This document shows, one piece after another, positions 3,936 to 38,310 of a DNA stretch of 64,000 nt. The notes beneath the pieces were generated by a model that was given only the letters and a program-made list of their open reading frames with translations, ran no database searches and was not told the DNA's origin. The stretch comes from Lautropia sp. SCN 69-89 (GTDB taxonomy: Bacteria > Pseudomonadota > Gammaproteobacteria > Burkholderiales > Burkholderiaceae_E): contig MEED01000011.1 in the NCBI GenBank assembly GCA_001724855.1, forward strand, positions 1 through 64,000, read 5' to 3'. The position numbers were made by a program, and so were the translations under genes. The first letter of the stretch is position 1, and every line of letters begins with the position of its first letter.

Positions 3936-4174
3936 TTATATCGGTATGTAAAAGCGCGATCGCGTGGCGACGACTTGCGTGAGCCGGTGCCAGGGCACGT
4001 ATAAACCGCGCTCCATACACAAGTCATACCCGTGTCGGGGAACCCCGCCCGCGGTCGCGATTTCGCTTTCGCCAATTGAGGCCAATGCAAAGCCCAAGGG
4101 ACGTAACGGGACGGCGCGATGGGTGCCAGTGGCCCATCCGCATCCGTTATGCCGAAATCCTTGGAGAATCAACG

Positions 4175-6121: not shown

Positions 6122-6304
6122 ACAGCGCCGCACCGGACGACATGCCGGTTCCTGGAGATCGCCGAACAGCCAGCAAGGTCACCTGCGAGAAAGGGCCACT
6201 TCCGAATGTCTACCGGTCAGGGGAGCTTACGGGGGGACGCCGCCGCTCGATGCGATCCTGGCCACTCAGGGTAGTCCGAGGAACCGGAATGAGGGACGCA
6301 GGGG

Positions 6305-6333
6305 TTGTGCGTTATGCATCCTTTCGCTATTCT
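6305..6333 (+). promoter_or_regulatory. Candidate sigma-70 promoter for the BREX operon
   Basis: TTGTGC (6305-6310) and TATTCT (6328-6333) are separated by 17 bp, about 28 bp upstream of the small HTH gene. The boxes are imperfect, but spacing and position fit a promoter for the regulator and pglW. It lies in a 240-bp gap after the recombinase gene. Confidence 0.35.
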
Positions 6334-6361
6334 GCGCATCACCCCGTCTCATTGGAAGCCC

Positions 6362-6583
6362 ATGATCCGATGCCACCTCTCCACCCTCATGGGCCGCGAC
6401 AAACTTCGCATTGCTGAGGTTTCGCGTCGGACGGGTCTGAACCGCAGCACAATCGCCGCGCTTTACAAGGAGACGGCCACGAGGATCGAGCTCCCAGCCA
6501 TCGAACAGCTGTGCCGGCTCTTCAATTGCCGGATCGGCGACCTGTTCGAGTATGTTCAGGACCGCGAGGAGGAGAAGCGGTGA
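6362..6583 (+). CDS. Small Cro/CI-type (XRE) HTH regulator
   Basis: A 73-residue protein that is almost entirely one helix-turn-helix domain of the HTH_26/YozG-like kind (IAEVSRRTGLNRSTIAALYKE, here cited from residues 17-37, then LPAIEQLCRLFNCRIGDLFEYV). ATG 6362 is preferred for its GGAAG upstream; a TTG at 6305 would read through the promoter. The stop overlaps the pglW GTG start in GTGA, so regulator and kinase are translationally coupled. It is the likely autoregulator of the defence operon; this role is inferred from position. Confidence 0.8.
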   Translation: MIRCHLSTLMGRDKLRIAEVSRRTGLNRSTIAALYKETATRIELPAIEQLCRLFNCRIGDLFEYVQDREEEKR

Positions 6584-9500
6584 CCCTGAGCGCCGCCCGC
6601 TGGCACGTCATCGCCGAGTCCAACTTCGCGTGGGAGCGAGAGGCGCTCGACTGGCTTCGAAGCCAACTGCCCGACCGCGACCCCTGGCACGTCTGGACCA
6701 ACTTCGAGTTCATCGACGACGAGGGCAAGGTCAGCGAGGTCGATGCACTGGTTCTTTCGCCGGCCGGTCTGTCCCTTGTCGAGATCAAGAGCCGCCCGGG
6801 CGTGCTGACCGGCGACGTGCACAGCTGGACCTGGACCACCGATGGCCGATCGACCACGGTCGACAACCCAGTCATCCTCGCCAATCGCAAAGCCAAGCGC
6901 CTGGCCAGCCTGCTCAAGCGGCAGCCGGCCATCACCAAGGCCAAGATCCGCCTGCCCTTCGTCGAGCCGGCGATCTTTCTCTCGTCCACCAGCCTGTCCT
7001 GCCGGCTCGAAGGGCTGGCCAAGTCGGCCACCTTCCAGCGCGGCCGACCCGGTGCCCTGGACGACCCGGGGATCGTCGGGGCGCTGGCCAACGGCGTCAC
7101 GAACCGCTCGGCGACCACCGTCGATTCGCAGCAGGCGCGCGCCATCGCCCGCGGCCTCACTGAGGCCGGCATCCGCCCCTCCAACAAGCACCGCCAGGTG
7201 GGCGACTACCGGCTGGGCAAGCTGCTGTCCGAGGGTGAAGGGTTTCAGGACTGGGAATCGCAGCACGTCAGCATCGACACGGTTCATCGCCGTGTCCGCA
7301 TCTACACCGTCGCTTCCGCCTCCACCCCCGAGGCCCGTGCCACACGCGTGCGCCAGGCGCGCCGCGAATTCGAGATCCTCGAAGGCATCGACCACCCCGG
7401 CATCCTGAAGGTCAAGGACTACAAGGAGACAGAACTCGGCCCGGCGCTGATCTTCGATCACGACCCCAAGGCCATGCGCCTGGATCACCTGCTGCGCGAC
7501 CACGGCAAGGATCTCTCGGTCACGCAACGCCTGCAGCTCGTGCGCGACATCGCCGAGACGCTGAAGTACGCCCACTCAAAGCGCTTGTACCACCGCGCCC
7601 TGGGGCCGCAGAGCATCCTCGTTCATGGCATCGGCAGCGGTGCGTTGCACCTGCGGCTGATGAACTGGCAGACCGCGTCGCGCAACGTCGGTGAGTCCGC
7701 GTCGCCGTACACCGTTCACCGCACGACCGGCACCCAGCACGTCGAGGACTATGTCGAAGACCCGGGGATGATCTACCTCGCCCCGGAGACGACGCGCGCC
7801 GACCCCGCGCATGGTCCGAGCCTGGATGTGTTCTCGCTCGGCTGCATCGCCTACCAGCTCTTCAGCGGCCAGCCACCCGCCGAATCGGTGCTGGACCTGG
7901 CAGAGAAGCTGCGCGTTGGCCAGGGGCTGCGCCTGTCGGACGTGATGGATGGCTGCGGCGCGCGGCAGCAGGAGCTGATCCAGTTCGCCACCTGCCCCGA
8001 CGTGCTCGCCCGCTACGACACGGTTCAGGACTTCCTCGATGACCTGGATCGCGTCGAGGACGAGCTCACCACGCCCGACCCGGAAGCCACTGTCGACCCC
8101 AGCGTCGCCAGCGCGGGGGATCGCCTGGACGGCGGCTTCACCGTCATCAAGCGCATGGGGCGTGGCTCCTCCAGCGACGCGCTGCTGGTGCGGAAGGACG
8201 GCAGCGACGAAGAGCACGTTCTCAAGGTCGCGTGCGACGTCGCGCACAACGACCGCCTGGCCGCAGAAGGCGAGGTCCTCGCGCGGCTGCATCACCAGAA
8301 CATCGTCGCCCACCGCGAGACGCTCACGGTCGCCGGCCGCACGGCGCTGCTGCTCAAGAGCGCTGGCAGCCGCACGATGGCCGAGAAGCTCAAGGAAGAG
8401 GGGCGCCTGTCGCTCGATATGCTGCAGCGCTTCGGAGAAGAGCTGATCGAAGCGGTGAACCACCTCGAAGCCGAAGGTGTGGCCCATCGCGACATCAAGC
8501 CCGAGAACATCGGCATCGCCGAGAACCGCACCGGCAAGCTGCAACTCGTGCTGTTCGACTTCTCTCTGTGCCGCACACCGGCCGACAACATCACGGCCGG
8601 CACCCACCCTTACCTCGACCCGTTCCTGTCCCTGCGCCGCCCGCCGCGCTGGGACCTGTACGCCGAGCGCTTCGCGCTGGCGGTCACGCTCTACGAGATG
8701 GCGGTCGGCCAGCCGCCGGTCTGGGGCGATGGGCAAACCTCGCCGGCCATGCTCGACGTCGAGGCCACCATCGAGAGCGACGTCTTCGACCCGGTCACGC
8801 GCGAGGGCTTCACCGCGTTCTTCTCGAAGGCCTTGAAGGGCGACTACCGCGAGCGCTTCGACAACGCCGAAGACATGCTGCGCGCGTGGCGCGCCATCTT
8901 TGCCGCTCGGCAGACGGTTCATCCGGGTGAGACCGGCGCAGCGGAAGGCCTTGCCGCCATCGCCATGACGGCCACGCCGCTCACCACGATGGCCGAGCTG
9001 GGCTACAGCCTGGAAGCGCAGGACATCCTGGAGCGCATGGGCATCCACAACGCCCGCGAACTGCTGGCCGTCGATCGCATCCGCTTTCGCTATCTGCGCG
9101 GCGTGGGCGACAAGATCCGCAAGGAGATTCGTCTCACCGCCAAGGAACTCGCCCGCCTGCGTCCCGACCTCACACAGGGCCGCAGCACTGCGCACGATGC
9201 GGACGAGGAAGTCGGCGGCGCCGTCAGCGTCAACGAACTGGCCGCGCAGCTGCTGCCGCGCCGCCCCGCCGGCGATGACCGCCCGGAGGAAGCCGCCCTT
9301 GCCCACTACCTCGGGCTGGACGACAGCGTCCAGGCCGGCACCTGGCCCAATCTTGGCGAGTCGGCGCAAGCCAACCAGGTCGACCGGGGCACGCTGACCG
9401 CCGCGCTCATCAAGGCCCGCGAGCGCTGGCTCAAGAACCCTGCGTTCACCGAGCTGCGGCAGCAGCTCGACACCCTGCTGCGCAGCCAGGGCCAGGTGAT

Positions 9501-10830
9501 GAGCGCGCACGAGAGCGCCATGGCCCTGCTCGCACTGCGCGGCTGCGCGGCGCAGGACGACGCGGAGCGGCTGCGCCAGGCCACCGCCGTGCTGCGTGCC
9601 GCGGTCGAAGCGGAGTCGCACCTCGACCAGCCGCGACTCGAGGCGTTTGACCACCAGCCCTGTGCGTTGATTGCCAGCGCCTCGGCCTGGGCCGACTACG
9701 CGCGGCAGCTCGGCGCCGCCGCAGACGCATGCGCCCTGGCCGATCCCCTGCTCCCGCCACCCCGCGTGCTCGAAACGCTGGAAGGCGTTCCCCTGCCCCC
9801 TGCACTGGCCGCTGAAGGCGCGCCCACTGCCGCGCTGACCCCCACCCGGCTACTGCGTCTGGCCGCCTCGGCGTCGCGCAAGGCGGCCTTATCCAGCCGC
9901 CAGGAGATCTACCCCCGCGGCATGGCACCGCTGCAGGCCCTGCGCCACTCCTTGGGCGCGCTGATCGGCGCGCCGCAATTGCGCCTGCGCGAAATCCAGG
10001 ACCGCGTGCGCGGTCGCTATCCCGAGGCCTCAGCCTTGCCCGGCCGCCCCGAGCTGGACCGCCTGCTCGAAGAGGCCGGCGCGCCGCTGAGTTGGGACCC
10101 GTCTGCCGCGGAAGGCGCCGGCGCGTACCGACTCTCGACCTTGGGCAGCGCGCAGACGGCCGGCACCACCACGGTGTTTTCGCGTCACACCACCGAGCTC
10201 ACGCTGCGGGCCGCCGGCGACGGCGCCGGTGCCGAACTGGCCGACGCCACCGCGGTCGAGGAGCGCCTCACCCGAAGCCTTCAACAAGGTGGCCTTCTGG
10301 TGTTGACCGTTCACCCGCGCATCGCGCGCCGGGCCGAAGCTGAACTGCTGCACCGCTTCGGGCAGCCTGGCACCCAGCCCGCTCCCCTGCAGCGCGTGAA
10401 CTTCGACGCGCTGCTGCTGGGCGCGTTGCGTGAGCAGGCAACAGCCGCCCGCGTCGACTGGAACGTGGTCCTCGAGGCTGACGCCGCCGACCGCGGCAGC
10501 CGGCACTGGATCAACCTGCAGCGGTTGGTGCAAAGAACGCTGCCCACCCTGCGCACCGCACTGCTGCAAGGCACAGCGCCCATCCTGCTGGTCAGTGCCG
10601 GCCTGCTCGCCCGGTACGACCTGATGACACTGATCACCGAGGTCGAGGAGCACGCCGGCCGTCCTGGACACACGCCCAGTGTGTGGTTGCTGCTGCCCAC
10701 GACTCACCAGGGCCTACCGGTCATCGATGGCGTCGCGGTGCCGATCGTGAACAACATCCAGAACACCCGCACGTTGGCGCTGGCGCAGGCCTGGGTGGAG
10801 AACAAACACCGGGCGAGCGTCGCCCCGTAG
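6580..10830 (+). CDS. pglW: BREX-2 protein PglW (NERD plus protein kinase)
   Basis: A 1416-residue Ser/Thr kinase of the Pgl/BREX type 2 anti-phage system. An N-terminal NERD (nuclease-related) domain shows D55 and the E68-x-K70 pair (SLVEIKSRPG). A first kinase-like domain (about 210-500) is degenerate: the HRD motif reads H338-R339-A340 and no DFG is seen. A second kinase domain (about 520-780) is complete: glycine loop GRGSSS, VLKVA lysine, catalytic H636-R637-D638 in HRDIKPEN, DFS for DFG, and AGTHPYLDP. A helix-hairpin-like segment (MGIHNARELLAVDRIRF...GVGDKI) and a long C-terminal region follow. The GTG start has a strong GAGGAGGAG upstream and overlaps the HTH gene. Size and order fit PglW. 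Confidence 0.92.
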   Translation: MTLSAARWHVIAESNFAWEREALDWLRSQLPDRDPWHVWTNFEFIDDEGKVSEVDALVLSPAGLSLVEIKSRPGVLTGDVHSWTWTTDGRSTTVDNPVILANRKAKRLASLLKRQPAITKAKIRLPFVEPAIFLSSTSLSCRLEGLAKSATFQRGRPGALDDPGIVGALANGVTNRSATTVDSQQARAIARGLTEAGIRPSNKHRQVGDYRLGKLLSEGEGFQDWESQHVSIDTVHRRVRIYTVASASTPEARATRVRQARREFEILEGIDHPGILKVKDYKETELGPALIFDHDPKAMRLDHLLRDHGKDLSVTQRLQLVRDIAETLKYAHSKRLYHRALGPQSILVHGIGSGALHLRLMNWQTASRNVGESASPYTVHRTTGTQHVEDYVEDPGMIYLAPETTRADPAHGPSLDVFSLGCIAYQLFSGQPPAESVLDLAEKLRVGQGLRLSDVMDGCGARQQELIQFATCPDVLARYDTVQDFLDDLDRVEDELTTPDPEATVDPSVASAGDRLDGGFTVIKRMGRGSSSDALLVRKDGSDEEHVLKVACDVAHNDRLAAEGEVLARLHHQNIVAHRETLTVAGRTALLLKSAGSRTMAEKLKEEGRLSLDMLQRFGEELIEAVNHLEAEGVAHRDIKPENIGIAENRTGKLQLVLFDFSLCRTPADNITAGTHPYLDPFLSLRRPPRWDLYAERFALAVTLYEMAVGQPPVWGDGQTSPAMLDVEATIESDVFDPVTREGFTAFFSKALKGDYRERFDNAEDMLRAWRAIFAARQTVHPGETGAAEGLAAIAMTATPLTTMAELGYSLEAQDILERMGIHNARELLAVDRIRFRYLRGVGDKIRKEIRLTAKELARLRPDLTQGRSTAHDADEEVGGAVSVNELAAQLLPRRPAGDDRPEEAALAHYLGLDDSVQAGTWPNLGESAQANQVDRGTLTAALIKARERWLKNPAFTELRQQLDTLLRSQGQVMSAHESAMALLALRGCAAQDDAERLRQATAVLRAAVEAESHLDQPRLEAFDHQPCALIASASAWADYARQLGAAADACALADPLLPPPRVLETLEGVPLPPALAAEGAPTAALTPTRLLRLAASASRKAALSSRQEIYPRGMAPLQALRHSLGALIGAPQLRLREIQDRVRGRYPEASALPGRPELDRLLEEAGAPLSWDPSAAEGAGAYRLSTLGSAQTAGTTTVFSRHTTELTLRAAGDGAGAELADATAVEERLTRSLQQGGLLVLTVHPRIARRAEAELLHRFGQPGTQPAPLQRVNFDALLLGALREQATAARVDWNVVLEADAADRGSRHWINLQRLVQRTLPTLRTALLQGTAPILLVSAGLLARYDLMTLITEVEEHAGRPGHTPSVWLLLPTTHQGLPVIDGVAVPIVNNIQNTRTLALAQAWVENKHRASVAP

Positions 10831-10877
10831 ATCCGCGCCGCCGCGATGCCGAACGCCACAACGGAAAGAACAGCTCA

Positions 10878-13800
10878 GTGATCAACGCCCCACAACTGCT
10901 CGCGGACCTGACCCGCCTGCTCAAGCGCCTCGAAGACGACCTGCGCCAGCGCATCGCCGACGTAGCCGAGCTGAAAGCCGGCCTGCAGGCAGAGTGGCAG
11001 GCCGCCCGCGACGCCGACCGCACGGCAGAGACTTTCGAGAGCTGGGCCGACCAGGTCATCACGCAGGCAGGTGTGCACTGGCTGCTGAGCTGCGTGTTCC
11101 TGCGCTTCATCGAGGACAACGAACTGGTCGAGCGCCCCTGGCTGGGCGGCACACCGGAGTCCGACCGACTGGCGCTGGCGCGCGACCGGCACGAGGCCTA
11201 CTTCCGCGAAAAGCCGCTGGAGAGCGACCGCGACTACCTGCTCGCGTCCTTCCGCGAAGCCGGCACGCTGCCAGGACTGCATACCTTCTTCGACGAGGCG
11301 CACAACCCGGTCTTTCGCCTCGGCATCAGCGGCGATGCGGCGATGGTCCTGCGCCAGTTCTGGCAACAGGTGGACCCCAACACCGGCACACTCGCGCACG
11401 ACTTCACCGACCCTGAGTGGAACACCCGCTTCCTGGGCGATCTCTACCAAGACCTGTCGGAAGCCACGCGCAAGCGCTACGCGCTGCTTCAGACGCCGGA
11501 GTTCGTTGAGGAGTTCATCCTCGACCGCACCCTGACGCCGGCGATCCGGGAGTTCGGTTTCCGCGAAGTGCGGATGATCGACCCCACCTGCGGCTCGGGG
11601 CACTTTCTGCTGGGAGGCTTTCGCCGGTTGGTCGATGAATGGCTTCGACACGAGCCCGCACGCAACCCGCGTGACATTGCGAAACGCGCGCTGGACGCCG
11701 TTGCCGGTGTGGACCTGAATCCGTTCGCAGTCGCGATCACGCGCTTCCGGCTGCTGGTGGCGGCGCTCGAGGTCAGTGGTGTTGATCGGCTGACCGGAGC
11801 GCCCGACTTCAGGCTCAACGTCGCCATCGGCGACAGCCTGCTGCACGGCGCGCGCTTCGGTCTCACCGCCACCGCCGGCATGTTCGAGGACGCCGGGCAC
11901 TACGCCGGCACAGCCCTGGCGCACGCCTACGCAAGCGAGGACCTGGCCGACCTGAACCGCATCCTCGGCCGCCAGTACCACGCAGTGGTCGGCAACCCGC
12001 CGTACATCGTCGTCAAGGACGCGGCGCTGAACGCAGCCTACCGGCAGCGCTATGCCAGCTGCCACATGAAGTATTCGCTCGGTGCGCCGTTCACCGAGCG
12101 CTTCTTCGAGCTGGCGCTCACCGGCAACGGCCGCCCCGCCGGCTTCGTGGGCCTGATTACCGCCAACAGCTTCATGAAGCGCGAGTTCGGTAGCAAGCTG
12201 ATCGAGCAGGTGCTGCCGCGGCTGGATCTCACGCACGTCATCGATACCTCGGGCGCCTACATCCCCGGCCACGGCACGCCGACCGTCATCCTGTTCGGCC
12301 GCCACCGCGCGCCGGTGGGCGACACGGTGCGCACGGTGATGGGCATCAAGGGCGAGCCGAGCACGCCTGACGATCCGGCGCGGGGGTTGGTGTGGTCGGC
12401 GATCGTCGGACAGGTGGACGTTGCCGGCTCGGAGAGCGAGTTCGTCAGCGTGGGGGATACGCCGAGGGAGACGTTCGCTAAGCATCCTTGGAGCATCGGC
12501 GGCGGGGGGGCTGCCGAGCTTCGGGAGGTAATCGAAGAAGCCGCAGAGAGAAGGCTCCGCGAACAGGCCGAGTCGATCGGGTTTATGGCGATCACGGGCG
12601 AAGACGAAGCATTCTTGGTACCACCGCATATCGCCTCGCGCATTGGCGCGCCGACGCGAGCGTTTGTCCTAGGCGATGCCGTTCGGGACTGGACGGTCCA
12701 CCCCGGAAACCTTGTCGAGTTTCCCTACAGCGAGACGCCCCGCGGCTTCGAGCCAGCTCCGTATGCGGTGGCTTCGACCTATGACCGCTGGTCTTGGCGC
12801 AACCGCGTTTTCCTTCGATCCCGCGTGATGTTCGGCAAGACTGCCGAACAGCACGGTTTTCGTTGGGACCAGTACATGCAGTTCATTGAGAGTCGTGTCT
12901 CGGCCGCATGCCTGATCACCTTTGGCGAAGTCGCAACCCACAACCACTTCGTCCTCGACCGCGGCGGCAAGGTCTTCAAGCAGACGGCGCCGGTGATCAA
13001 ACTGCCGGCAGGCAGCAGCGAGGACGAGCACCTCGGGCTGCTCGGACTGCTCAATTCGTCGGTGGCGTGCTTCTGGTTCCAGCAGGTTTGTCACAACAAG
13101 GGCGGCCCTGGCGGTGGGAGCAGCAAGGACGAGAAGTGGCATGACTTCTACGCCTTCAACTCGACCACGGTCGCCGAGTTCCCGCTTGTGGCCGAGCGCC
13201 CGGTGGTATTGGCGCGCCAGCTTGACGATCTTGCGTTGCGGCTCACCTCCTGTATGCCGTCCGCCCAAGTTTCGACCGCGACCTCACTTGGAACCGTGCC
13301 GAGCCGTGGCGTGCTCGACCGTGCGCGCGCCGAAGCAGTTTCAATCCGCAAGCAGATGGTGGCCTGGCAGGAAGAGCTCGATTGGCACGTCTACGGCTTG
13401 TACGGTGTGCTGCCTGCAGAGATCGACCCAATGGCCGTAAAGCACGCTGACCCGCCCGAGGTGGACCGTGGTGAGCGTGCGTTTGAGATCGTGCTGGCGC
13501 GCAGGGCAGCCGCGGGAAAGCTAGAGACGCGTTGGTTCGAATGGTTGGGCATCGCACCGGTGACCGAGATCCCCGGTCGGTGGCCCGCCGACTACCGAGA
13601 GGTGGTACGGCGTCGGATCGACCTGATCGAGCGCGAGCGCAACATCGGCCTCATCGAGAGCATGGGCTGCAAGCGTCGCTGGGAGTGGGCGGCCTGGGAC
13701 GACCTGGAACACACTGCGCTGCGCGATTGGCTGCTCGATCGACTGGAGGCGCCACACCTGTGGTCCGGCACCGCCGACCGCCCACCTCAGCTCATCACCA

Positions 13801-14483: not shown

Positions 14484-14509
14484 CACCTGGTTCGAAGGAA
14501 CGCACGACG

Positions 14510-15748: not shown

Positions 15749-15752
15749 CGAG

Positions 15753-16826: not shown

Positions 16827-16855
16827 ACCGCGCGGACCGTTCGTGGATGCTATAT

Positions 16856-16881
16856 GTTAAAAGAAGTGGCTATTTTTTAAC
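16856..16881. promoter_or_regulatory. AT-rich inverted repeat between fic and pglY
   Basis: GTTAAAA (16856-16862) and TTTTAAC (16875-16881) form a perfect 7-bp inverted repeat with a 12-bp spacer, inside a conspicuously AT-rich patch in an otherwise GC-rich operon. The 127-bp gap from fic to pglY is the longest within the pgl genes. It could be an operator or promoter for pglY-pglZ-brxD-brxHI. A Rho-independent terminator is less likely because the stem is A/T only. Confidence 0.45.
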
Positions 16882-16953
16882 GCGTTCCGACCATACGTTC
16901 ATTTGCACAACATGTCCGCCTCAAAAGGCGGCCGCCAGGGTGGGAGCTTCTTG

Positions 16954-19900
16954 ATGCCGCTTCTGAAAGACCTAATCACTATCCCCGAGCGCGTGCATCA
17001 GGGCGACTTCGTCCTGCAACTCACCAAGGGGGTCACCGAGCCGGAGCAGACGCTGCGCGACTACGTGGTGACGCCGCAGCTGGTCGATGCCTTCAGCAAC
17101 GCCCTGGGCTTCATCCAGCAGGCCGTGCAGACGGCGAGCAGCAAGGCCGCCTATCTGCACGGCAGCTTCGGATCCGGCAAGAGCCACTTCATGGCGGTGC
17201 TCAACCTGCTGCTGGCCGGCAACACGCAGGCACGCTCGATTCCCGAGTTGGCCGATGTCGTGGCATGCCACAGCTGGACGCATGGGCGCAAGTTCCTGCT
17301 CGTGCCGTATCACATGATCGGCGCGCGGGACATGGAGTCGGCCATCCTCGGCCAGTACGCCGAGTTCGTGCGCAAGAAGCACCCTGAGGCGCCGGTGCCC
17401 GGTTTCTACCTGGCCGAGGGCCTGTTCAAGGATGCGCGCGAACTGCGCGAGCGCATGGGCGATGAGCCCTTCTTCGCCCAGTTGAACAAGGGTGCTGGAG
17501 GCGCAGGGGGCGGCGGTGGCGGTTGGGGCGAGTTCGAGAGCGGCTGGGACGCCGCCAGCTTTGAAGCGGCCATGCTGGAGCCGCCCAATGGCGAGGAGCG
17601 TTCGCGCCTCGTTGGCGACCTGATCACGCAGTACTTCTCGGCGTACCGCAGCCTGGCTGGCAGCGGCGAGTCGTTCGTCTCGCTCGACGATGGGCTCAGC
17701 ATCATGAGTCGTCACGCCCAGGCGCTGGGCTACGACGCGGTCATCCTGTTCCTGGACGAGCTGGTGCTCTGGCTCGCGAGCCACGCTGCCGACGTCAACT
17801 TCGTCAGCCGCGAGGGCACGAAGCTGGTGAAGCTGGTGGAGGCCACCAATGCCGAGCGGCCCGTGCCCCTGATCAGTTTCGTGGCCCGGCAGCGCGACTT
17901 GCGCGACCTGGTAGGCGAGAACCTGGCCGGCTCGGTGCAGTTGCAGTTCAGCGATGTGCTGAAGCACTGGGAAGCGCGCTTCCACCGCATCACGCTGGAA
18001 GACCGCAACCTGCCGGCCATCGCCGAGAAGCGCGTGCTGCGCCCTGTGGACGAAGCCGCACGCCAGACGCTGCAGACCACGTTCGACGACGTGATGAAGA
18101 TGCGCAAGGACGTGCTCGACACCTTGCTCACCACCACGGCCGACCGGGAGATGTTCCGAAAGGTCTATCCGTTCAGCCCGGCGCTGGTGCAGACGCTGAT
18201 CGCTGTCTCGGCGGCGCTGCAGCGCGAGCGCACCGCGCTGAAGCTGATGCTGCAGTTGCTGGTGGACCGTCGGGCAGACTTGGAGCTCGGGCAGCTGATT
18301 CCGGTCGGCGACCTGTACGACGCCATCGCCGAAGGCGACGAACCGTTCTCGGAAGGCATGCGCCTCCACTTCGACAACGCGAAGCGCCTGTACAACCAGC
18401 GGCTGCTGCCCATGCTTGAGCGCCACCACGGCGTCACCTGGGAGGCCATCAAGCTCGGCCAGGCGGACCCGACGGCGGCCAAGAACCTGCGCAACGACGC
18501 GCGCCTGCTCAAGACACTGCTGCTCGGCGCACTGGTGCCCGAGGTGGAATCGCTCAAGGGCCTGACTGCGCAGCGCCTGGCCGCGCTGAACCACGGCACC
18601 TTCCGCTCGCCCATCCCCGGGCGCGAGGCGCAGGATGTGCTGCGCAAGTGCCGCGACTGGGCCAGCGAGATCGGCGAGATCAAGATCACCGAGGACCAGA
18701 ACCCGGTGATCTCGATCCAGGTCACCGGCGTCGACATCGAGCCCATCCTGCGTGCCGCCGAGGCCAACGACAACGCCGGCAATCGGCGAAAGAAGATCCG
18801 CGAGACCTTGTTCGAGCAGCTGGGCATTCAGGACGCCGGCGGGTTGTTCACGACCTACGAGTTCGTCTGGCGCGGCACGCGGCGTGAGGTCGAGCTGCTG
18901 TACGAGAACGTCCGTGAGATGACCGACGACCGCCTGCGTGGCCGCTCGGGCGCCTGGTCGGTGGTGATTGACTTTCCGTTCGACGACGCGAACTTCGGCC
19001 CGGCGGATGACCTGGCACGTCTGGGCGCGTACCGCGGCGGCGACACGCGGACGCTCGTGTGGCTGCCCTCCTTCCTCAGCAACAAGGCGCTGGCCGACCT
19101 CGGCCGCCTGGTCGTGCTCGACTACATCCTGCAAGGCGACCGCTTCGACAACTACGCTGCGCACCTGTCGTTCGTCGACCGTGTGCAGGCCAAGGCGCTG
19201 GCAAGGAATCAGCTCGACCAGCTGCGGATCAAGCTCCGGTCGCAACTCGAAGTGGCTTACGGGATCAGCACCGAGCCGCGTGACGCGGTGAGCAATCCGC
19301 TCACGGCAGACCAGCAGTTCCAGTCGCTGGACCCGACACTGTCGCCGCGCCCTCCTGTGGGCGCCGACTTCCGCAGTGCCTTCGAGAGCCTGCTGGGCCA
19401 GCTGTTTGCCCACCAGTACCCGGCGCATCCCGAGTTCGACACCGAGATCAAGGTCAGCGTCATCAAGAAGGTCTGGCCCGAAGTGCAGAAGGCCGTCGAA
19501 TCGCCTGGCCAGCGCGGGCTGGTGCAAGACAGCTCGACGCGCAAGCTGGTACGCGCTGTCGTGAACCCCTGCCAGCTTGGCCAGATGGGCGAGACCCATC
19601 TGCTGATCGAGCCGCACTGGCAGTCGCGATTCGGGCAGAGCCATGCGCGCGATGGCGGCGGGGCGATCACGGTGGCCAAGCTACGCGGCTGGATCGACAC
19701 CCCGGTGCCGATGGGACTGCCGATCGAGCTGCAGAACCTGATCATCCTGGCGTACGCCGCGTCCACCAACCGCCGCTTCACGCTGCGCGGCGGGCCAGTC
19801 GAGCCCACCATCGACAGCCTGTCCGACGACCTGGAGTTGAAGGAACAGGCGCTGCCCAACGCCGCCGACTGGCAGACGGCGCTGCAGCGCGCCTCCAGCC

Positions 19901-20652
19901 TCTTCGGCCTGACGCTCGCGCAGACGCTCAATGCGGCCAACGTCGGCCGCTTGGTCGATGACGTGAAGCAAGTGGCCAGCGGCAAGCGCGAAGCAGTGGG
20001 CCGGCTAGTCGCACAGGTCCGTGACCGGTCGAACCGCTATGCAGCGGGCGCCACCGGTGCCCGCCAGCAATCGGCGGAATCTGCGCAAGCGCTGCTGGCC
20101 ACGCTCACGCAGGCCGCGGAAGGCGATGTCGTGACATCGCTGGCCACCGCGACCCTGAATACCTCGGAGGCGGCGGTGAGCCGCACCCTCGGCCAAGCGC
20201 AGGCGTGCGCCGATGCCCTCACCAACGGCAACTGGCAGTTGTTCGACGTGGTCCGCGATCTCGGGGACCATCGACGCGATGCAGCGGCCGGCATCATGAC
20301 TCGCCTCGCCGAGGTGCTGACCGCCGACGAGCATGTCGTCCCGCTCAAGTCGCGGCTGGCGGAGCTCGAGCGAGACGCCATGCAGTTGCTCGCGGCCGCT
20401 GCGCCCGCGCAGCCACCTGCACCTGCACCGGTGCCTCCTGGCGGGAGTGCTGCACCCACGCCACTGCCCCCGGTGCTGCCACCCGCGCCGGGCTTCAACG
20501 GCCCGGAGGTGGTGGAAGAGAAGCAGGCGCTTCATCTGACCGGCGCCGCCGCGGTGGCGGAGCTGGATGACTTGAAAGCGCGCATCGCCCGCGACCGCGA
20601 TCTGGAACTCACCCTCAGCTGGCGCCTGGAGCGCAAGGGCACGAAGCTATGA
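16954..20652 (+). CDS. pglY: BREX-2 large P-loop ATPase PglY
   Basis: A 1232-residue P-loop protein of the PglY/BrxC class, the large ATPase of BREX. Walker A is G70SFGSGKS (K76) and the Walker B-like acidic pair is D268-E269 (VILFLDEL). A glycine-rich run at about residues 180-195 and a Pro/Ala-rich linker near 1150-1190 separate domains. ATG 16954 is chosen for the GGGAG at 16941-16945 and because MPLLKDLITIPERVHQGDF matches PglY N-termini; ATG 16912 and TTG 16903 are alternatives. It overlaps pglZ by 4 bp. In other BREX systems this ATPase works with PglX and PglZ; here that is inferred from family. Confidence 0.93.
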   Translation: MPLLKDLITIPERVHQGDFVLQLTKGVTEPEQTLRDYVVTPQLVDAFSNALGFIQQAVQTASSKAAYLHGSFGSGKSHFMAVLNLLLAGNTQARSIPELADVVACHSWTHGRKFLLVPYHMIGARDMESAILGQYAEFVRKKHPEAPVPGFYLAEGLFKDARELRERMGDEPFFAQLNKGAGGAGGGGGGWGEFESGWDAASFEAAMLEPPNGEERSRLVGDLITQYFSAYRSLAGSGESFVSLDDGLSIMSRHAQALGYDAVILFLDELVLWLASHAADVNFVSREGTKLVKLVEATNAERPVPLISFVARQRDLRDLVGENLAGSVQLQFSDVLKHWEARFHRITLEDRNLPAIAEKRVLRPVDEAARQTLQTTFDDVMKMRKDVLDTLLTTTADREMFRKVYPFSPALVQTLIAVSAALQRERTALKLMLQLLVDRRADLELGQLIPVGDLYDAIAEGDEPFSEGMRLHFDNAKRLYNQRLLPMLERHHGVTWEAIKLGQADPTAAKNLRNDARLLKTLLLGALVPEVESLKGLTAQRLAALNHGTFRSPIPGREAQDVLRKCRDWASEIGEIKITEDQNPVISIQVTGVDIEPILRAAEANDNAGNRRKKIRETLFEQLGIQDAGGLFTTYEFVWRGTRREVELLYENVREMTDDRLRGRSGAWSVVIDFPFDDANFGPADDLARLGAYRGGDTRTLVWLPSFLSNKALADLGRLVVLDYILQGDRFDNYAAHLSFVDRVQAKALARNQLDQLRIKLRSQLEVAYGISTEPRDAVSNPLTADQQFQSLDPTLSPRPPVGADFRSAFESLLGQLFAHQYPAHPEFDTEIKVSVIKKVWPEVQKAVESPGQRGLVQDSSTRKLVRAVVNPCQLGQMGETHLLIEPHWQSRFGQSHARDGGGAITVAKLRGWIDTPVPMGLPIELQNLIILAYAASTNRRFTLRGGPVEPTIDSLSDDLELKEQALPNAADWQTALQRASSLFGLTLAQTLNAANVGRLVDDVKQVASGKREAVGRLVAQVRDRSNRYAAGATGARQQSAESAQALLATLTQAAEGDVVTSLATATLNTSEAAVSRTLGQAQACADALTNGNWQLFDVVRDLGDHRRDAAAGIMTRLAEVLTADEHVVPLKSRLAELERDAMQLLAAAAPAQPPAPAPVPPGGSAAPTPLPPVLPPAPGFNGPEVVEEKQALHLTGAAAVAELDDLKARIARDRDLELTLSWRLERKGTKL

Positions 20653-23348
20653 GCTTGTCCACCCCGCAGATCGCGGCGCAGCTCGAGCGGGTGCTGGCGA
20701 GCGATCCATCCACCGTGGCCTTGGCAATTCGGGCGAAAGCTCGTCAGCCGTGGCCCGAGACGCTGAACCAGCGTGGCCGGCAGTTCGCGCTGCGGTGGTG
20801 CGAGTCGTCCTTGGCCATCCGCGAGGCGCTGTGCGATGTGGAGCAGCATGACCCCGCAACGGCGGGGCTGGTGGTCCTCACACCGTTGGCGACGCATGAG
20901 ATCGCCGAGGACATCGCGGCGCGCCTGGCGCGCGCGCGAGTGTTTCAGCCCGAGGGCTGGGACATCGTCCGTCAACTGTTCCAGGCCAAGGAGACCGACG
21001 CCCGGCTGGGGCGCTTCGCCTGGATGCCGCAGTGCCTGATCGACGGCGCGGCACAGGGCCCCTACCCGCCCGTGGCCAATGGCTTTCTCGGCCTGGAGAC
21101 GGCGTGGCAGGAAGTGCTGCAACGGTTTCTGCGGATTCCGGCAGCACGCCCGGATGCGGTCGCCCTGCTGAACTGGTCGATGACTGCCGGCGCCGAAGCC
21201 ACACTGGATCAATTGCCCGCAGCAGCCAGAGCGGACGTCATGCGCTGGCTCGCTGAGACGGCCGGCAGCGCAGGGGAAATGGTCCTAGGCTGCGTTGAAG
21301 CCGGCCGCACGGCCGACGCTTTGCCGCTGGGGCTGGTTTGCGGCGCGGTCTTTGCGCCGGAGGGCGAAGGACTGGCGCCGTTGGGCCAAGCGGCGATCCG
21401 CCTGGAGCGGTACGTCAACGACAAACACATCGGCGTGCCGGAAGGCCGCGCGTGGGCTCGCGCCGCGGAGCAAGTCGTGCGGTCAGCCGGGCTGGAGGCA
21501 GCGCGCGTGGCACTCGAGCGCGCGGATGCCTTGCTGCGTGACCTACGCGTCGCCGAATTCGCTCACTTGAGCGACCTGCTTCCGGCGGCACTGGACCAGC
21601 GGATGCAGGACTTCGCGCTGGCCTTGTCAGCACACGTCGCCGAACCCAAGGAGGCCAACCTGGCCCAGGTGGAACTGCAGGCCGACCGAGTCCTGAGGCA
21701 CACGCTAATGGCATCGCAAGCGCCACGCGCGGAGCGCGTCGGCATGGCGCGCCGGCTGGCGCGATGGCTACTGAACGCCCCCAAGGCGGCCACATCGCTA
21801 CCAAGCGCTGTGGCGTGGCAGGCGGACGAAGGTGCGTTCGTGGATTGGGCGCGCTTCCGTCTGCTCGGCGGCGACGAGATCGCGGAACTCTCGCAAGCCT
21901 ACGGCGCGTGTCGCGAGGCTCTGATCGCGCGGCGGAACACGTTCGCCAAGCCGTTTGCCCAGACGTTGATCGAGTGGAACGCGAACAAGCCATCCCTCGA
22001 CGGGCGCCTGGTACCGGTCGAATGCGTGCTCGAGCATGTCGTGGCGCCGATCGCGGCAGCCCACCCCACGTTGTTGCTGGTGATGGATGGGTTGAGCATC
22101 AGCATCTTTCGGGAGCTGTTCACGCGCAGCGCAAGCCATGGCTGGGCCGAGATGGTGCCAGCCGAGCTCGGGCAGCCTCTCGTCGGCGTGGCGGCACTGC
22201 CCACCGTCACCGAGGTGAGCCGCACCAGCCTGCTTTGTGGACGACTCACGCTCGGAGCTGCCGCCCAGGAGCGCTCGGGGTTTTCGACGCATGCAGCGCT
22301 TCTGGCGCACAGCCGCGCCGGAGTACCGCCCCGGTTGTTCCACAAGGGCGATCTGGCCGACGCGACCAACTTGGCACCCGAGGTGCGCGCGGCGATTGCT
22401 GACCCTCATCAACGCGTGATCGGCGTGGTCTACAACGCGGTTGACGATCACCTGAGCGGGCCTGATCAGCTGCATCAGCGCTGGACGCTCGAAGACCTCC
22501 GGCTGCTACTGCCTCTGTTGCGTGAAGCGCGGGAAGCCAGGCGCGTGGTGGTGATCACCGCCGACCATGGGCACCTGCTGGAAGACGGCACCGCGCAGGT
22601 GAGTAACGGCGGTGAGAGCGACCGCTGGCGCCCAGGCACTGACAACCGCGGGCCACACGAATTAGCGGTGAGCGGAGGACGCGTGGTGACGAGCGATGGC
22701 TCGAACACGGTCGTGTGCCTCTGGGGAGAAAGCACTCGGTACGGCGGGCGCAAGAACGGCTACCACGGTGGGCTGTCGCCCCAGGAGGTGACAGTGCCCC
22801 TCGCGGTGATGGTTCCCCTGGGACTCAACCTTCCGGGATGGAGGCCGGCGCCGCCGGCTCAACCCGAGTGGTGGGAGCTGCCTCCGATCCCGAAACCGAA
22901 GGAAGCCAAGCCCGCCGTCGCACAACCGGTGCGAGCCGCTGCCCGCAAGCCGAGCGTGCAAGCCGGTCAGCCCCAGCTGTTCGAGGAGACCGAGCTGCCG
23001 CCAGCGCCGGCGCCAACAGCGCCGGACTGGATCAGCGCCTTGTTGAGCGGTCCCATCTACGCATCGCAGAGGCAACTGGCTGCGCGGGTTGCGCTGCCCG
23101 ACGAGAAGATGCGAGCGCTTCTGAGCGCGTTGTCCGAGCGCGGCGGCAAGCTCTCGCGCGCTGCGTTGGCCCAGCGGCTCGCACTGCCTGAGATCCGCCT
23201 GGGCGGAATGCTGAGCGCGGTCAGGCGGATGTTGAACGTCGACCAGGCGCCGGTGCTGGTCATCGATGAGGCAGCCGGAACCGTGGAGTTGAACATCGCG
23301 CTGTTGCACCAGCAGTTTCGCGTCAGTGGCCCAGGGGGGCAACGATGA
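20649..23348 (+). CDS. pglZ: BREX-2 phosphatase-superfamily protein PglZ
   Basis: An 899-residue PglZ, the signature protein of all BREX types. The central PglZ domain belongs to the alkaline phosphatase superfamily. Visible metal-site features are D480 in LLVMDGLS, the VSRTSLLCG nucleophile-like segment, VYNAVDDHLSG, and D639-H640-G-H642 in ITADHGH. The C-terminal 150 residues follow a Pro/Ala-rich linker and look like a winged-helix segment. The start overlaps the pglY stop in ATGA and the end overlaps brxD in ATGA, so translation is coupled through the second half of the operon. Length fits PglZ of type 2. Confidence 0.93.
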   Translation: MSLSTPQIAAQLERVLASDPSTVALAIRAKARQPWPETLNQRGRQFALRWCESSLAIREALCDVEQHDPATAGLVVLTPLATHEIAEDIAARLARARVFQPEGWDIVRQLFQAKETDARLGRFAWMPQCLIDGAAQGPYPPVANGFLGLETAWQEVLQRFLRIPAARPDAVALLNWSMTAGAEATLDQLPAAARADVMRWLAETAGSAGEMVLGCVEAGRTADALPLGLVCGAVFAPEGEGLAPLGQAAIRLERYVNDKHIGVPEGRAWARAAEQVVRSAGLEAARVALERADALLRDLRVAEFAHLSDLLPAALDQRMQDFALALSAHVAEPKEANLAQVELQADRVLRHTLMASQAPRAERVGMARRLARWLLNAPKAATSLPSAVAWQADEGAFVDWARFRLLGGDEIAELSQAYGACREALIARRNTFAKPFAQTLIEWNANKPSLDGRLVPVECVLEHVVAPIAAAHPTLLLVMDGLSISIFRELFTRSASHGWAEMVPAELGQPLVGVAALPTVTEVSRTSLLCGRLTLGAAAQERSGFSTHAALLAHSRAGVPPRLFHKGDLADATNLAPEVRAAIADPHQRVIGVVYNAVDDHLSGPDQLHQRWTLEDLRLLLPLLREAREARRVVVITADHGHLLEDGTAQVSNGGESDRWRPGTDNRGPHELAVSGGRVVTSDGSNTVVCLWGESTRYGGRKNGYHGGLSPQEVTVPLAVMVPLGLNLPGWRPAPPAQPEWWELPPIPKPKEAKPAVAQPVRAAARKPSVQAGQPQLFEETELPPAPAPTAPDWISALLSGPIYASQRQLAARVALPDEKMRALLSALSERGGKLSRAALAQRLALPEIRLGGMLSAVRRMLNVDQAPVLVIDEAAGTVELNIALLHQQFRVSGPGGQR

Positions 23349-24658
23349 TCAGCGCCGCACGGCGAGAAGACATCGTCGGGGCGCTGCGGCGCGGCACCGT
23401 GCCCAGCAGCGGCCTCGATGCGCTTGCGGTGGGCATCGAATCGTTCGCACCCACTCTCGACGAGGAGCTGGCGGCGGTCGCCGCCGGCCGCGGTGGGTTC
23501 AAGGCTGTACGCGGTGAGTACGGGACGGGCAAGACGTTCTTCGGGCGTTGGCTGCAGGAGCGCGCGCGCGCCCGCGGCTTTGCCGCGACGGAAGTCCAGA
23601 TAAATGAGACTGAAACGCCGCTGCATCGCCTGGAGACGGTGTACCGCCGACTCGTAGAACACCTAGGCACGGCAGACTCCGCGAGCGGGGCCTTTCGCGG
23701 TGTCATCGATGGCTGGTTCTATGCGCTGGAGCAGGATGTTCTAGCCGACGCTTCTGTCGATCCCAACGACGCCGGGGAACTGCTGTCGCGCACCGACGCA
23801 CTGATGGAGGCACGCCTGTCCACCATCAGCAAGACCGCGCCGGCCTTCTCCGCCGTGCTGCGCACTTACCGTCGCGCGCTGGCGGCCGGCGATGGCATGT
23901 TGGCCGAGGGGCTGATCAGCTGGCTGGCGGGCCAGCCGAACGTGGCGGCCAGCGTGAAGCGCGCCGCGGGGATCAAGGGCGACCTCGATCATTTCGGCGC
24001 CACGAATTTCCTGGTGGGCCTGCTCACCATCCTTCGCGACAGCGGCTACTCCGGTCTGGTCATGGTGCTGGACGAGGTGGAAACGCTGCAGCGCATGCGC
24101 ACCGACACCCGCGAGAAGGGACTGAACGCTCTCAGGCAATGGATCGACGAGATCGATGCGGGGCGGTATCCCGGCCTCTACCTGGTCGTCACGGGCACAC
24201 CGGCATTCTTCGACGGCCCCCAGGGCGTGCAGCGCCTCGCGCCGCTGGCCCAACGTCTGCACGTCGACTTCGGCACCGATCGTCGCTTCGACAACCCCCG
24301 CGCGGTCCAGATCCGCCTGGCACCCTTCGACCATACAGCCCTGCTGGCCGTGGGACGACGCGTCCGAGACATCTATGCTGAAGGCCGCCCCCATAAGCAG
24401 CGCCTGCGCAGCGTCGTGGACGACAGCTACCTCGACACGCTGGCCCGCGCTGTGGCCGGCGGCTTGGGCGGCAAGATCGGCGTGGCGCCGCGGTTGTTCT
24501 TAAAGAAACTCGTCGCCGACATTCTGGATCGTGTCGATCTACACGAGGACTTCGATCCACGCCGGCACTACACCCTGACGCTGGCCGAGAGCGAGATGTC
24601 GGTGGTCGAACGGGCGGCCGCAAGCGCCACTTCGGTGGACGACATCGAGCTGCCGTGA
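23345..24658 (+). CDS. brxD: BREX-2 ATP-binding protein BrxD
   Basis: A 437-residue P-loop ATPase. Walker A is G57EYGTGKT (K63) and Walker B is MVLDE with D243-E244. The N-terminus (ARREDIVGALRRGTVPSSG) matches the start of BrxD proteins of type 2 BREX. It overlaps pglZ upstream (ATGA) and brxHI downstream (GTGA), a fixed order in type 2 loci. BrxD is thought to work with the partner helicase BrxHI; the exact reaction is not established. Confidence 0.92.
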   Translation: MISAARREDIVGALRRGTVPSSGLDALAVGIESFAPTLDEELAAVAAGRGGFKAVRGEYGTGKTFFGRWLQERARARGFAATEVQINETETPLHRLETVYRRLVEHLGTADSASGAFRGVIDGWFYALEQDVLADASVDPNDAGELLSRTDALMEARLSTISKTAPAFSAVLRTYRRALAAGDGMLAEGLISWLAGQPNVAASVKRAAGIKGDLDHFGATNFLVGLLTILRDSGYSGLVMVLDEVETLQRMRTDTREKGLNALRQWIDEIDAGRYPGLYLVVTGTPAFFDGPQGVQRLAPLAQRLHVDFGTDRRFDNPRAVQIRLAPFDHTALLAVGRRVRDIYAEGRPHKQRLRSVVDDSYLDTLARAVAGGLGGKIGVAPRLFLKKLVADILDRVDLHEDFDPRRHYTLTLAESEMSVVERAAASATSVDDIELP

Positions 24659-26667
24659 GCGAATTCGAGCAACTGCACCCTTCCCTGCAGTACCACGTCG
24701 TCAACACGCTGGGCTGGAGCACGCTGCGCCCGACCCAGCTGGCGGCGATCGCGCCGATTCACGCGGGAACTCATTGCCTGCTGCTCGCGCCGACCGCCGG
24801 CGGCAAGACGGAGGCGGCGGCGATCCCGATCCTGTCGAGGATGCTCGTCGAGGCGTGGCCTGGGACGAGCGTTCTCTATGTCTGCCCGATCAAGGCACTG
24901 CTGAACAACCTGGAGCCCAGGCTCTCGCACTACGCCGGCCTGGTGGGACGCCGCGTCGAGGTCTGGCACGGGGACATCTCCCAGTCGCGCAAGAACCGGG
25001 CGCTCAAGGATGCGCCGGACATCCTGCTCACGACGCCCGAATCTGTCGAGGCCATGCTGATCTCTGCAAGGGTCGATCGGCCTGCATGGTTCGGCAACCT
25101 GCAGGCGGTGATCGTCGACGAGCTACACGCGTTCGCCGGCGACGACCGCGGCTGGCACCTGCGATCGGTGCTGCACCGGCTGGACCAGTATTTGGAGCGA
25201 CCGCTTCAACGCATCGGCCTGTCTGCAACGGTGAGCAACCCGAGCGAGCTGCTGGCCTGGTTGGCGCCCACCGGAAGCAGGAGCGTCGTCGGCACTGCGA
25301 GCGTCAGCACGGACGCCGACGTGACCATCGACCACGTCGGCTCGCTCGAGAACGCTGCCACCGTGATCGCGCGGCTGCATCGCGGTGAGAAGCGGCTGGT
25401 CTTCTGCGACTCCCGCAGCAGCGCGGAGCAACTGAGCAGCATGTTGCGGACCCATGCGATCCGGACTTTCGTCAGCCATGCCTCGCTCAGCTTGTCCGAA
25501 CGGCGACAGGCCGAAGCGGCCTTCTCCGAGGAGCGGGACTGCGTCATCGTCGCCACGTCGACGCTGGAGCTCGGCGTCGACGTAGGCGATCTCGATCGCG
25601 TGGTCCAGATCGACTCGCCATCGAGCGTCTCATCGTTCCTCCAGCGAATGGGCCGCACGGGCCGGCGGACCGGTGACCGTCGCAACTGCCTCTTCCTGAC
25701 CACGAACGACAACGCCCTCCTCCTGGCCCTAGGAGTGACGCAGAAGTGGTCCGAGGCCTGGGTCGAGGCGGCTGTGCCGCCTGCAGAGCCATGGCACATC
25801 GTCGCGCAACAGGCGTTGGTTCTGAGCCTCGAGCGAGGCGAGCTCCCCACGCAGGAGTTGGTCGATCTGCTCCACGGGTCGTTCCCCGAACTGCACATCA
25901 CGGACATTGAAGTGCTCGTCGAGCACCTGGTGGGACAGCAGTTCCTCGATCGCTCCGAGGGCGTGGTGCGGGTGGGTCCGCATACCGAGAGCAGCTACGC
26001 GCGCGGTCACTACCGCGATCTGCTTGCGTCCTTCAGCGGTTCCCAACTGCTGACCGGCCGGCACGGCGCCGCCGAAGTCGGCTACATCGACCCGATGGTG
26101 TTGACCGGCGAGCGCGATGAACGTCTGCTCTTGCTGGCTGGCAGAAGTTGGCGGGTCACCGACGTCGACTGGTCGAAGCGGATCGTGTGGCTGGAGCCGG
26201 CTGCCGGCGGAGGCAAAGCGCGCTGGATGGGTGGCGCACGCAGTCTGGGCCGCGAGGTGTGTCAGGGCATCCGCACGGTGCTAGCGAACGGCGCCGCGCC
26301 CACCGTTACTTTGTCTCGGCGTGCACGAACAGCATTGGAGGCGCTGGCCGAGGAGATCCCGATGTCCTCGGGAACGAACTTCGTGACGTCTCGGTCCGAC
26401 GGCGCGCCCGCGCAAACCTGGACTTTCGCCGGCACGCGAGCGAACCGTACCTTGGCTCGCCAGGCGTCGATCGGCGGCACAAAGACTCGCTTCGATGCGT
26501 TGAGCGTACAGGCGCCTATTGCAGCCCTGCCGGCCAGGCTGCCTGACCGCATCGAGCTGGCACGAGACGAGATCGCAGCCTTCCACGAGTCCATCAAGTT
26601 CGCCGACTGCGTTCCGAGGCTGTTGATTTCTAGAACGATCGTGGCAAGGAATTTCGAGGTGTGCTGA
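24655..26667 (+). CDS. brxHI: BREX-2 Lhr-like helicase BrxHI
   Basis: A 670-residue superfamily 2 helicase. Motif I is APTAGGKT with K51, motif II D155ELH, motif III LSAT, and motifs V/VI read ELGVDVGDLDRVVQ and QRMGRTGR. The layout is Lhr-like. The GTG start overlaps brxD. The C-terminus (IKFADCVPRLLISRTIVARNFEVC) aligns by eye with the last conserved block of Lhr-like helicases but seems to stop a little early. The downstream DNA has no relation to the operon, so a small truncation at an island junction is possible. The core motifs are intact, so activity is expected. Confidence 0.9.
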   Translation: MSEFEQLHPSLQYHVVNTLGWSTLRPTQLAAIAPIHAGTHCLLLAPTAGGKTEAAAIPILSRMLVEAWPGTSVLYVCPIKALLNNLEPRLSHYAGLVGRRVEVWHGDISQSRKNRALKDAPDILLTTPESVEAMLISARVDRPAWFGNLQAVIVDELHAFAGDDRGWHLRSVLHRLDQYLERPLQRIGLSATVSNPSELLAWLAPTGSRSVVGTASVSTDADVTIDHVGSLENAATVIARLHRGEKRLVFCDSRSSAEQLSSMLRTHAIRTFVSHASLSLSERRQAEAAFSEERDCVIVATSTLELGVDVGDLDRVVQIDSPSSVSSFLQRMGRTGRRTGDRRNCLFLTTNDNALLLALGVTQKWSEAWVEAAVPPAEPWHIVAQQALVLSLERGELPTQELVDLLHGSFPELHITDIEVLVEHLVGQQFLDRSEGVVRVGPHTESSYARGHYRDLLASFSGSQLLTGRHGAAEVGYIDPMVLTGERDERLLLLAGRSWRVTDVDWSKRIVWLEPAAGGGKARWMGGARSLGREVCQGIRTVLANGAAPTVTLSRRARTALEALAEEIPMSSGTNFVTSRSDGAPAQTWTFAGTRANRTLARQASIGGTKTRFDALSVQAPIAALPARLPDRIELARDEIAAFHESIKFADCVPRLLISRTIVARNFEVC

Positions 26668-36369: not shown

Positions 36370-36372
36370 CTG

Positions 36373-37980: not shown

Positions 37981-37993
37981 CGCCTCGATCGCC

Positions 37994-38308: not shown

Positions 38309-38310
38309 GC

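Follow-up and report, generated by a model that had tools for sequence, protein, structure and literature searches.

Why does an anti-phage operon carry a gene for a predicted suicide enzyme in its middle? This question is raised by positions 6362-26667 of a 64,000-nucleotide stretch of Lautropia sp. SCN 69-89 (contig MEED01000011.1, positions 1 to 64,000; hereafter the window, which starts at base 1 of the contig). The main finding is that these positions hold a type 2 bacteriophage exclusion (BREX, or Pgl) operon with a SoFic-like cassette between pglX and pglY. The pglX-pglY junction is an exchangeable slot, whose recurrence and exchange are seen in related loci. One of the two genes embedded in the window probably encodes a suicide enzyme, and it is followed by a likely DNA control site placed before the second half of the operon.

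The operon and its embedded genes

The operon contains the following features.

6362-6583, + strand: HTH_26 (Cro/C1-type helix-turn-helix, HTH) regulator gene; Pfam HTH_26, 8.7e-19
6580-10830, + strand: pglW, with NERD, degenerate kinase and kinase domains; NF033442, 1641.6 bits (cut-off 990)
10878-14483, + strand: pglX, adenine methyltransferase; NF033451, 1733.5 bits (cut-off 400)
14510-15748, + strand: DUF6161/AbiZ-like gene, 412 aa; Pfam DUF6161 (PF19658), 82.1 bits (cut-off 27)
15753-16826, + strand: fic, SoFic-like class II Fic AMPylase; Pfam Fic_N, Fic and SoFic-like_C; PADLOC SoFic, 2e-116
16836-16951, no strand assigned: inverted-repeat array between fic and pglY, possible operator, half-sites like AYRYGTTAA; nhmmer and pattern scan
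16954-20652, + strand: pglY, BrxC-like ATPase; PADLOC BrxC/PglY, 1620.1 bits, nearly full length
20649-23348, + strand: pglZ; NF033446, 898.8 bits (cut-off 200)
23345-24658, + strand: brxD; NF033438, 658 bits (cut-off 350)
24655-26667, + strand: brxHI, helicase; PADLOC BrxHI, 895.3 bits

The first-pass annotation described a complete, canonical six-gene type 2 BREX locus. The type 2 assignment was correct, and the six genes are intact open reading frames (ORFs), co-located in the order given, with catalytic motifs. The order is canonical but the count is not, as the operon has nine genes and the HTH gene and the two embedded genes had been overlooked. Position 6362 is the start of the small HTH gene and not of pglW. 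The stop of the HTH gene at 6583 overlaps the GTG start of pglW at 6580 by 4 bp, and in two plasmid loci a gene is annotated with the same placement and overlap. No genes had been listed between pglX and pglY, where two intact genes lie (14510-15748 and 15753-16826); the DUF6161 gene starts 26 bp after pglX and fic starts 4 bp after the DUF6161 gene. The coupled translation proposed for the second half of the operon is borne out by 4-bp overlaps at pglY/pglZ, pglZ/brxD and brxD/brxHI.

Profile searches, which had been suggested as a check, place pglW and pglZ in their own NCBIfam families and brxHI in PADLOC BrxHI. BrxHI has no NCBIfam match over cut-off among the 25 families listed out of 36, and PglY, whose start was set by alignment to relatives, scores 1071.4 bits against NCBIfam NF047891, under its cut-off of 1700. 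The kinase, methyltransferase, ATPase, PglZ and helicase motifs that had been reported were all seen in the translations. The second kinase domain of PglW has HRDIKPEN, with DFS replacing DFG, and the HRD of the first kinase domain is degenerate. PglX has NPPY at residue 373 and a variable middle region at about residues 500-1000 (identity profile against 11 close loci). Walker A motifs are present in PglY and BrxD, DELH is present in BrxHI, and PglZ has MDGLS and TADHGH, which we take to be its metal site. In BREX, PglX marks self DNA and the remaining proteins restrict unmarked DNA. Streptomyces PglX is toxic without PglZ, and both the PglW kinase and the PglY ATPase are required (PMC4365076).

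The locus had also been singled out for its non-actinobacterial setting. The setting is as described, and the guess of a betaproteobacterium is consistent, but such a host is unsurprising because the published range already includes it: of 1,309 type 2 BREX taxa, 1,039 are actinomycetes and 270 are not (PMC12839542). A PglX search of genome contigs gave 21 loci, none titled as an actinobacterium. Sixteen of the 21 are betaproteobacterial, going by their titles with the genera placed in the class. Type 2 BREX is rare, being found in 3 of 399 genomes of the order and in 6 of 398 genomes of the phylum, the window's own included in each (PglX, E <= 1e-100). The locus could be read as an ordinary six-gene type 2 BREX, remarkable for its host only, and all six genes are indeed intact; with two further intact genes inside the operon and the host range published, this reading is already contradicted and its probability is close to nil.

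The fic product has Fic_N, Fic and SoFic-like_C in one protein, with intact HPFPDGNGR and SSEIEN motifs. Toxicity in E. coli is known for SoFic, abortive infection by AMPylation has been proposed for it, and AS1, a protein of 47 residues whose gene lies downstream, is its reported antitoxin (PMC12249575). No comparable small ORF with a start common to five loci was found by three-frame translation of about 140 bp 3' of fic, and a short frame that is open there in the window is closed in two relatives (L005 and L012). The DUF6161 protein scores above the gathering threshold of PF19658, and its hydropathy indicates two hydrophobic segments at about residues 280-308 and 315-350. AbiZ causes premature lysis of infected cells (PMC6356687). 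DUF6161 genes are rarer than those for SoFic, with two others among the 399 order genomes (39% and 27% identity) and two partial plasmid matches. Weak sequence matches of DUF6161 to interferon gamma resemble coiled-coil similarity and were disregarded.

The pglX-pglY slot

Gaps between neighbouring core genes were compared in 33 loci, namely the window, the 21 loci of the PglX contig search, and 4, 4 and 3 loci added in further searches. A junction was measured only where both gene ends are present and was called loaded when the gap exceeded 400 bp. Two loci of G791 were left out: L114 (7022-10573), where pglX has no other core-gene match within 20 kb, and L117 (9688-10449), whose pglX is a C-terminal fragment cut off by the end of the contig. 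Four loci (L004, L006, L008 and L017) stop before pglY and count at most for pglW-pglX. The L012 gap is 1,656 bp with a stray pglX tail merged, or 6,539 bp in an earlier run; both exceed 400 bp.

The pglX-pglY junction is loaded in 19 of 29 cases and pglW-pglX in 6 of 29 (Fisher 0.0012). None of the downstream junctions is loaded (pglY-pglZ, 0/24; pglZ-brxD, 0/20; brxD-brxHI, 0/17), and the comparison of pglX-pglY with these three pooled (0/61) gives a Fisher value of 1.4e-12; as the loci are related, these p-values overstate their independence. An earlier run on 26 of the same loci gave 14/21 for pglX-pglY, 4/23 for pglW-pglX and 0/39 downstream. Cargo ORFs were inspected in 15 of the 19 loaded junctions. 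L123 was outside the inspection, L113 and L115 have short ORFs of 186 and 139 aa, and L125 has no annotated gene there.

Is the slot merely the least constrained gap in the operon, where genes land by chance and have no functional link to BREX? The downstream junctions are coupled in the window and mostly have gaps near 0 in relatives, and insertion there would be costly because those genes overlap and are translationally coupled. The pglW-pglX junction, though, is mostly uncoupled too and yet is loaded less often. On this and on the evidence given below, such passive cargo is considered unlikely.

The contents of the slot were identified by a PADLOC scan of ten proteins (from L002, L005, L006 and L021) and of the window's cargo; the rest were classified by their similarity to these, and the PDC names used here are those of PADLOC. 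Eight of the ten representatives match PADLOC candidate models, and the MqsA-like protein and its neighbour had no match in that scan. The same modules recur in differing orders. SoFic occupies the slot in five loci (window, L005, L009, L012, L019) and DUF6161 is found in four (window, L006, L014, L021). A three-gene module (PDC-M28A/B/C in L002) is present in eight (L002, L012, L017, L018, L019, L020, L035, L036), and a Streptomyces plasmid (L125) has relatives of M28B/C at the opposite flank of pglX. The PDC-M25A/B pair is found in L002 and L019, a larger Fic (PDC-S24 in L021) in L003, L012 and L021, the MqsA-like gene in L005, L009 and L019, the PDC-M61A/B pair in L006 and a TIR protein in L013. 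The contigs of L006 and L017 end before pglY, and their cargo is counted as lying after pglX. In L009 and L019, the stretch from the array to the MqsA-like gene includes a palindrome with TTATCATGGTGATAA, which may be that gene's own operator.

Exchange, stacking and loss can be followed in individual loci. L016 is close to the window in pglW (about 95% DNA identity) and in pglY and the start of pglZ (about 94%), while the middle of pglX is at about 40-65%; it has no gene between pglX and pglY and an OLD-type ATPase gene before pglX. The slot of L011 looks empty and holds a scar in which the first 50 or so bases of M25A are joined to the end of M25B. In L012 two slot units are stacked, separated by a truncated pglY and a pglX tail. 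The variable region can also be exchanged without cargo, as in L010 and L022, where PglW and PglY are 99% identical and the variable region 54%. Separately, an interruption of about 0.55-0.67 kb splits pglX near residue 800 in L012 (3164-3834) and L035 (22415-22964).

The wide variation in contents between loci, with DUF6161 and SoFic forming no fixed pair, is what passive cargo would produce. The recurrence of a limited set of cassettes and the matches of eight in ten representatives to defence-candidate models argue against it. That cargo hitch-hikes on the exchange of PglX specificity was rejected in a Mantel-type comparison of 24 loci. Cargo sharing was not linked there to the PglX N-terminus (0.06) or to PglW (0.29), and its link to PglY and to the C-terminus of PglX was weak (p about 0.03 for either, uncorrected for the five tests).

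A single clade of SoFic proteins

The SoFic proteins of the other four slots share 83-87% identity with that of the window, and the five form one clade with support 100/99 among 63 rows. All five have the catalytic HPFxxGNGR and the N-terminal inhibitory [ST]xxxE[GN]. Control searches covered the class (a SoFic homologue in 41 other genomes of 369, all <= 52% identical), the order (46 others of 399; best 74%, then 62% and 60%), plasmids (252 records, all < 60%) and viruses (seven contigs from a pattern-based scan, best 57%). In the 20 kb of L102, the locus of the 74% copy, nothing else matches the BREX or cargo queries. One clade, with no copy found outside the slot above 74%, is a further point against passive cargo.

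The inverted-repeat array after fic

An AT-rich array lies directly 3' of fic in all five slot SoFic loci. Its core is the inverted repeat GTTAAAA-N-TTTTTAAC, followed by a looser second repeat. With five elements (window, L005, L012, L018, L034) as its training set, a model finds two untrained ones, in L019 (1.5e-12) and L009 (1.2e-7), and its remaining matches have E >= 0.012. The strict form GTTAAAA-N6-18-TTTT[TG]AAC occurs only after the five slot fic genes in the 1.19 Mb scanned. The array is not conserved as a reading frame, RNA folding of six elements is unremarkable except for that of L009, and an Rfam search of the window found nothing. A sigma-70 scan of 5900-17100 gave no promoter, so none is shown for the array. 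The retention of the array behind each of the five fic genes also speaks against passive cargo.

Related half-sites are found near SoFic genes outside BREX. L103 and L104 have similar downstream arrays with TGTCGA half-sites, and a weak match follows fic in L102, the nearest non-BREX relative (E 0.016; visible in the alignment). Half-site patterns were written from the slot elements and the downstream regions of L102-L104, and were preferred over the PAIR pattern because the latter was written after viewing upstream sequences. SoFic copies whose match ends before residue 350 were dropped and flanks of < 200 bases were not counted. Upstream of 62 non-BREX SoFic genes, where counts are independent of the source sequences of the patterns, there are 80 half-sites against 6.5 (standard deviation 2.4) in shuffles, and 16 of the 62 genes have at least two (shuffles 0.4). 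Downstream of 61 copies, L102-L104 included, there are 18 against 4.2, and at least two occur in 5 of 61, partly pattern sources. For the BREX copies the sides are reversed, with at least two half-sites upstream in 0/5 and downstream in 4/5. In several loci the upstream arrays overlap -35/-10-like sequences, as judged by eye.

The array looks like an operator of the autoregulatory type; its place in the BREX clade is downstream of fic and ahead of pglY or other slot genes. A role as attachment site of the cassette was set aside because half-sites are enriched upstream of other SoFic genes, some of them at -35/-10-like sequences. A covariation of winged-helix residues with half-sites is suggestive and clade-confounded, and was left unused.

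Does the array belong to pglY instead? It could be an internal promoter or operator of pglY, used by the HTH regulator or another factor, and its adjacency to fic would be incidental. The window, L005, L018 and L034 have pglY immediately after the array, and in L012 the truncated pglY lies downstream of it; fic is missing from this place in L018 and L034. In L009 and L019, though, the array follows fic and other genes precede pglY, the same half-site type is enriched around SoFic genes outside BREX, and the weak match in L102 again follows a non-BREX fic. Ownership by pglY is doubtful on this evidence, though somewhat less so than passive cargo.

A possible back-up layer of defence

The explanation we favour, and hold to be probable by a modest measure, is a type 2 BREX system with an exchangeable slot for secondary anti-phage genes, in which the embedded pair is a back-up abortive-infection layer and the array is the operator of SoFic. 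Gene content, motifs, the recurrence and exchange of the slot, the SoFic clade and the array are observed; from them we infer the activities and the regulation. As known for the family, PglX would methylate host DNA at a site that its variable middle region specifies, and PglW, PglY, PglZ, BrxD and BrxHI would block unmethylated phage DNA. The embedded genes would form a back-up abortive layer when BREX fails or is inhibited, with Fic AMPylating a host target and the DUF6161 protein acting at the membrane. The position and motif of the array suggest that it is most likely bound by the winged-helix domain of SoFic, and that the SoFic protein may influence transcription of pglY-pglZ-brxD-brxHI. 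A back-up layer with possible control of the effector half is proposed because of the toxicity of SoFic and the abortive mechanism suggested for it, and because CccR, a related class II Fic protein, is a repressor of its own promoter, where it binds palindromes.

Several observations weigh against this explanation. The array is upstream of pglY with no fic beside it in L018 (14952-15070) and L034 (23348-23473), and so may be pglY's own or a relic; the other loci that lack SoFic, loaded or empty, have no array match. Fewer than two upstream half-sites are found in 46 of the 62 non-BREX SoFic genes, so the upstream rule is not universal. The fic product reaches 471.2 bits against the NCBIfam equivalog NF046030, below the cut-off of 550, and is therefore labelled SoFic-like and not as that equivalog. 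The PADLOC AbiZ match of DUF6161 (1.2e-15) covers profile positions 172-383 of 398, the C-terminal half only, and is not a full-length AbiZ. Its four-sequence structural model is poor, with a mean predicted local distance difference test (pLDDT) score of 56 (single-sequence model, 48), and Foldseek matched no fold to it at E <= 0.001. DUF6161 and SoFic occur together in one of the eight loci that hold either (the window only) and are therefore not a fixed pair. The Mantel-type comparison gives no link between cargo sharing and the PglX variable region (0.09). As for composition, the GC contents of the DUF6161 gene (0.585) and fic (0.616) are below those of the core BREX genes (0.66-0.69), which fits passive cargo; they are near those of two flanking host genes (0.61), so that composition gives no sign of foreignness to the host. 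In L018, decayed half-sites may mark a lost SoFic cassette.

A bolder possibility is that SoFic has been rewired as a controller of the restriction system. Its winged helix would bind the array, which many other SoFic loci have upstream of fic but which is placed here before pglY-pglZ-brxD-brxHI, so that the methyltransferase half is constitutive and the restricting half is expressed on release of SoFic, either on infection or after the host genome has been methylated. The arrangement has a parallel in L104 (6481-13890), with the order hsdM-hsdS-SoFic-array-hsdR, and, by eye, in L096 (42-4031), where a type I methylase-like gene, SoFic, the array and an hsdS-like gene follow one another. Other downstream arrays stand before unrelated genes in L102 and L063 (by eye) and before a convergent gene in L103, and after that of L126 no ORF > 120 aa was seen on that strand; the link between array and restriction genes is thus only suggestive. 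The controller role is put forward tentatively, with the odds somewhat against it, and the back-up abortive-infection cassette is preferred as the reading of the sequence.

These results point to the pglX-pglY junction, beside the specificity methyltransferase, as the one place in type 2 BREX operons at which secondary defence genes come in, pile up and disappear again. They also suggest a specific and testable connection of a probable suicide enzyme, acting by AMPylation, with transcription of the BREX effector half. The timing and back-up of BREX, as well as DNA binding by SoFic, would become directly testable.

Flanking sequences

The gene on the left of the operon is the following.

4076-6121, + strand: tyrosine-recombinase-like gene; weak NF001399 match, E 4e-4, far below cut-off

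A recombinase had been reported to adjoin the locus, and this gene does lie beside it. It is not counted as part of the system because it has no match > 60 bits in any of 25 other loci (upstream flank length varied). Farther left, at the end of the contig, are transposase genes of the IS3/IS481 type (349-1440) and DDE_Tnp_1 type (2884-3855).

On the right, a candidate empty site is seen in G409, which shares the flank from window position 26773 at about 91% DNA identity and has no BREX match in the 35 kb compared; as the window starts with its contig, the comparison bears on the right boundary only. Genes scanned on the right flank have ordinary catabolic functions. At 34384-39702, downstream of BREX, are genes for biotin carboxylase, carboxyl transferase and AtuA-type proteins (acyclic terpene utilisation), and a tRNA-Cys with the unusual anticodon ACA, possibly a false positive, is predicted at 38084-38168.

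Comparison with known systems

The locus resembles Streptomyces coelicolor Pgl in having the same six genes in the same order with kinase, NPPY, P-loop and PglZ motifs, and differs from it in the SoFic-like and DUF6161 genes between pglX and pglY and in the HTH gene overlapping pglW.

The embedding of defence genes in BREX is already known, from brxU (PMC8565348) and from nucleases (PMC12839542). In the type I BREX of pEFER, as here, an extra and separately active defence gene lies beside pglX inside the operon. That system is of type I and not type 2, brxU is located between brxC and pglX, and its cargo is a type IV restriction enzyme (PMC8565348), whereas an AMPylase and a probable membrane protein are carried here. 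The nuclease effectors of PMC12839542 are likewise secondary effectors flanked by core genes; the section on embedded effectors concerns nucleases, and neither 'Fic' nor 'DUF6161' is in the main text, to which the search was confined. A literature search, with preprints and most subscription papers outside its range, found no paper with BREX, pglX, pglY and Fic together and none that mentions DUF6161 or any of four PDC names. Among the 13 listed papers that name both SoFic and BREX, no title or abstract beginning reports embedding.

The fic product shares Fic_N, Fic, SoFic-like_C, HPFxDGNGR and the inhibitory SxxxEN with the anti-phage SoFic of PMC12249575. It differs in being embedded in BREX, in having no shared AS1-like ORF downstream and in the array 3' of its gene. 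DNA binding by SoFic was not shown as of 2023 (PMC10628234). CccR is a class II Fic protein with a C-terminal winged helix that represses its own promoter, binds its palindromes and is described as a secreted effector (PMC10628234). The window has the same combination of a Fic protein with palindromes, here candidate binding sites, but the array fronts another gene set.

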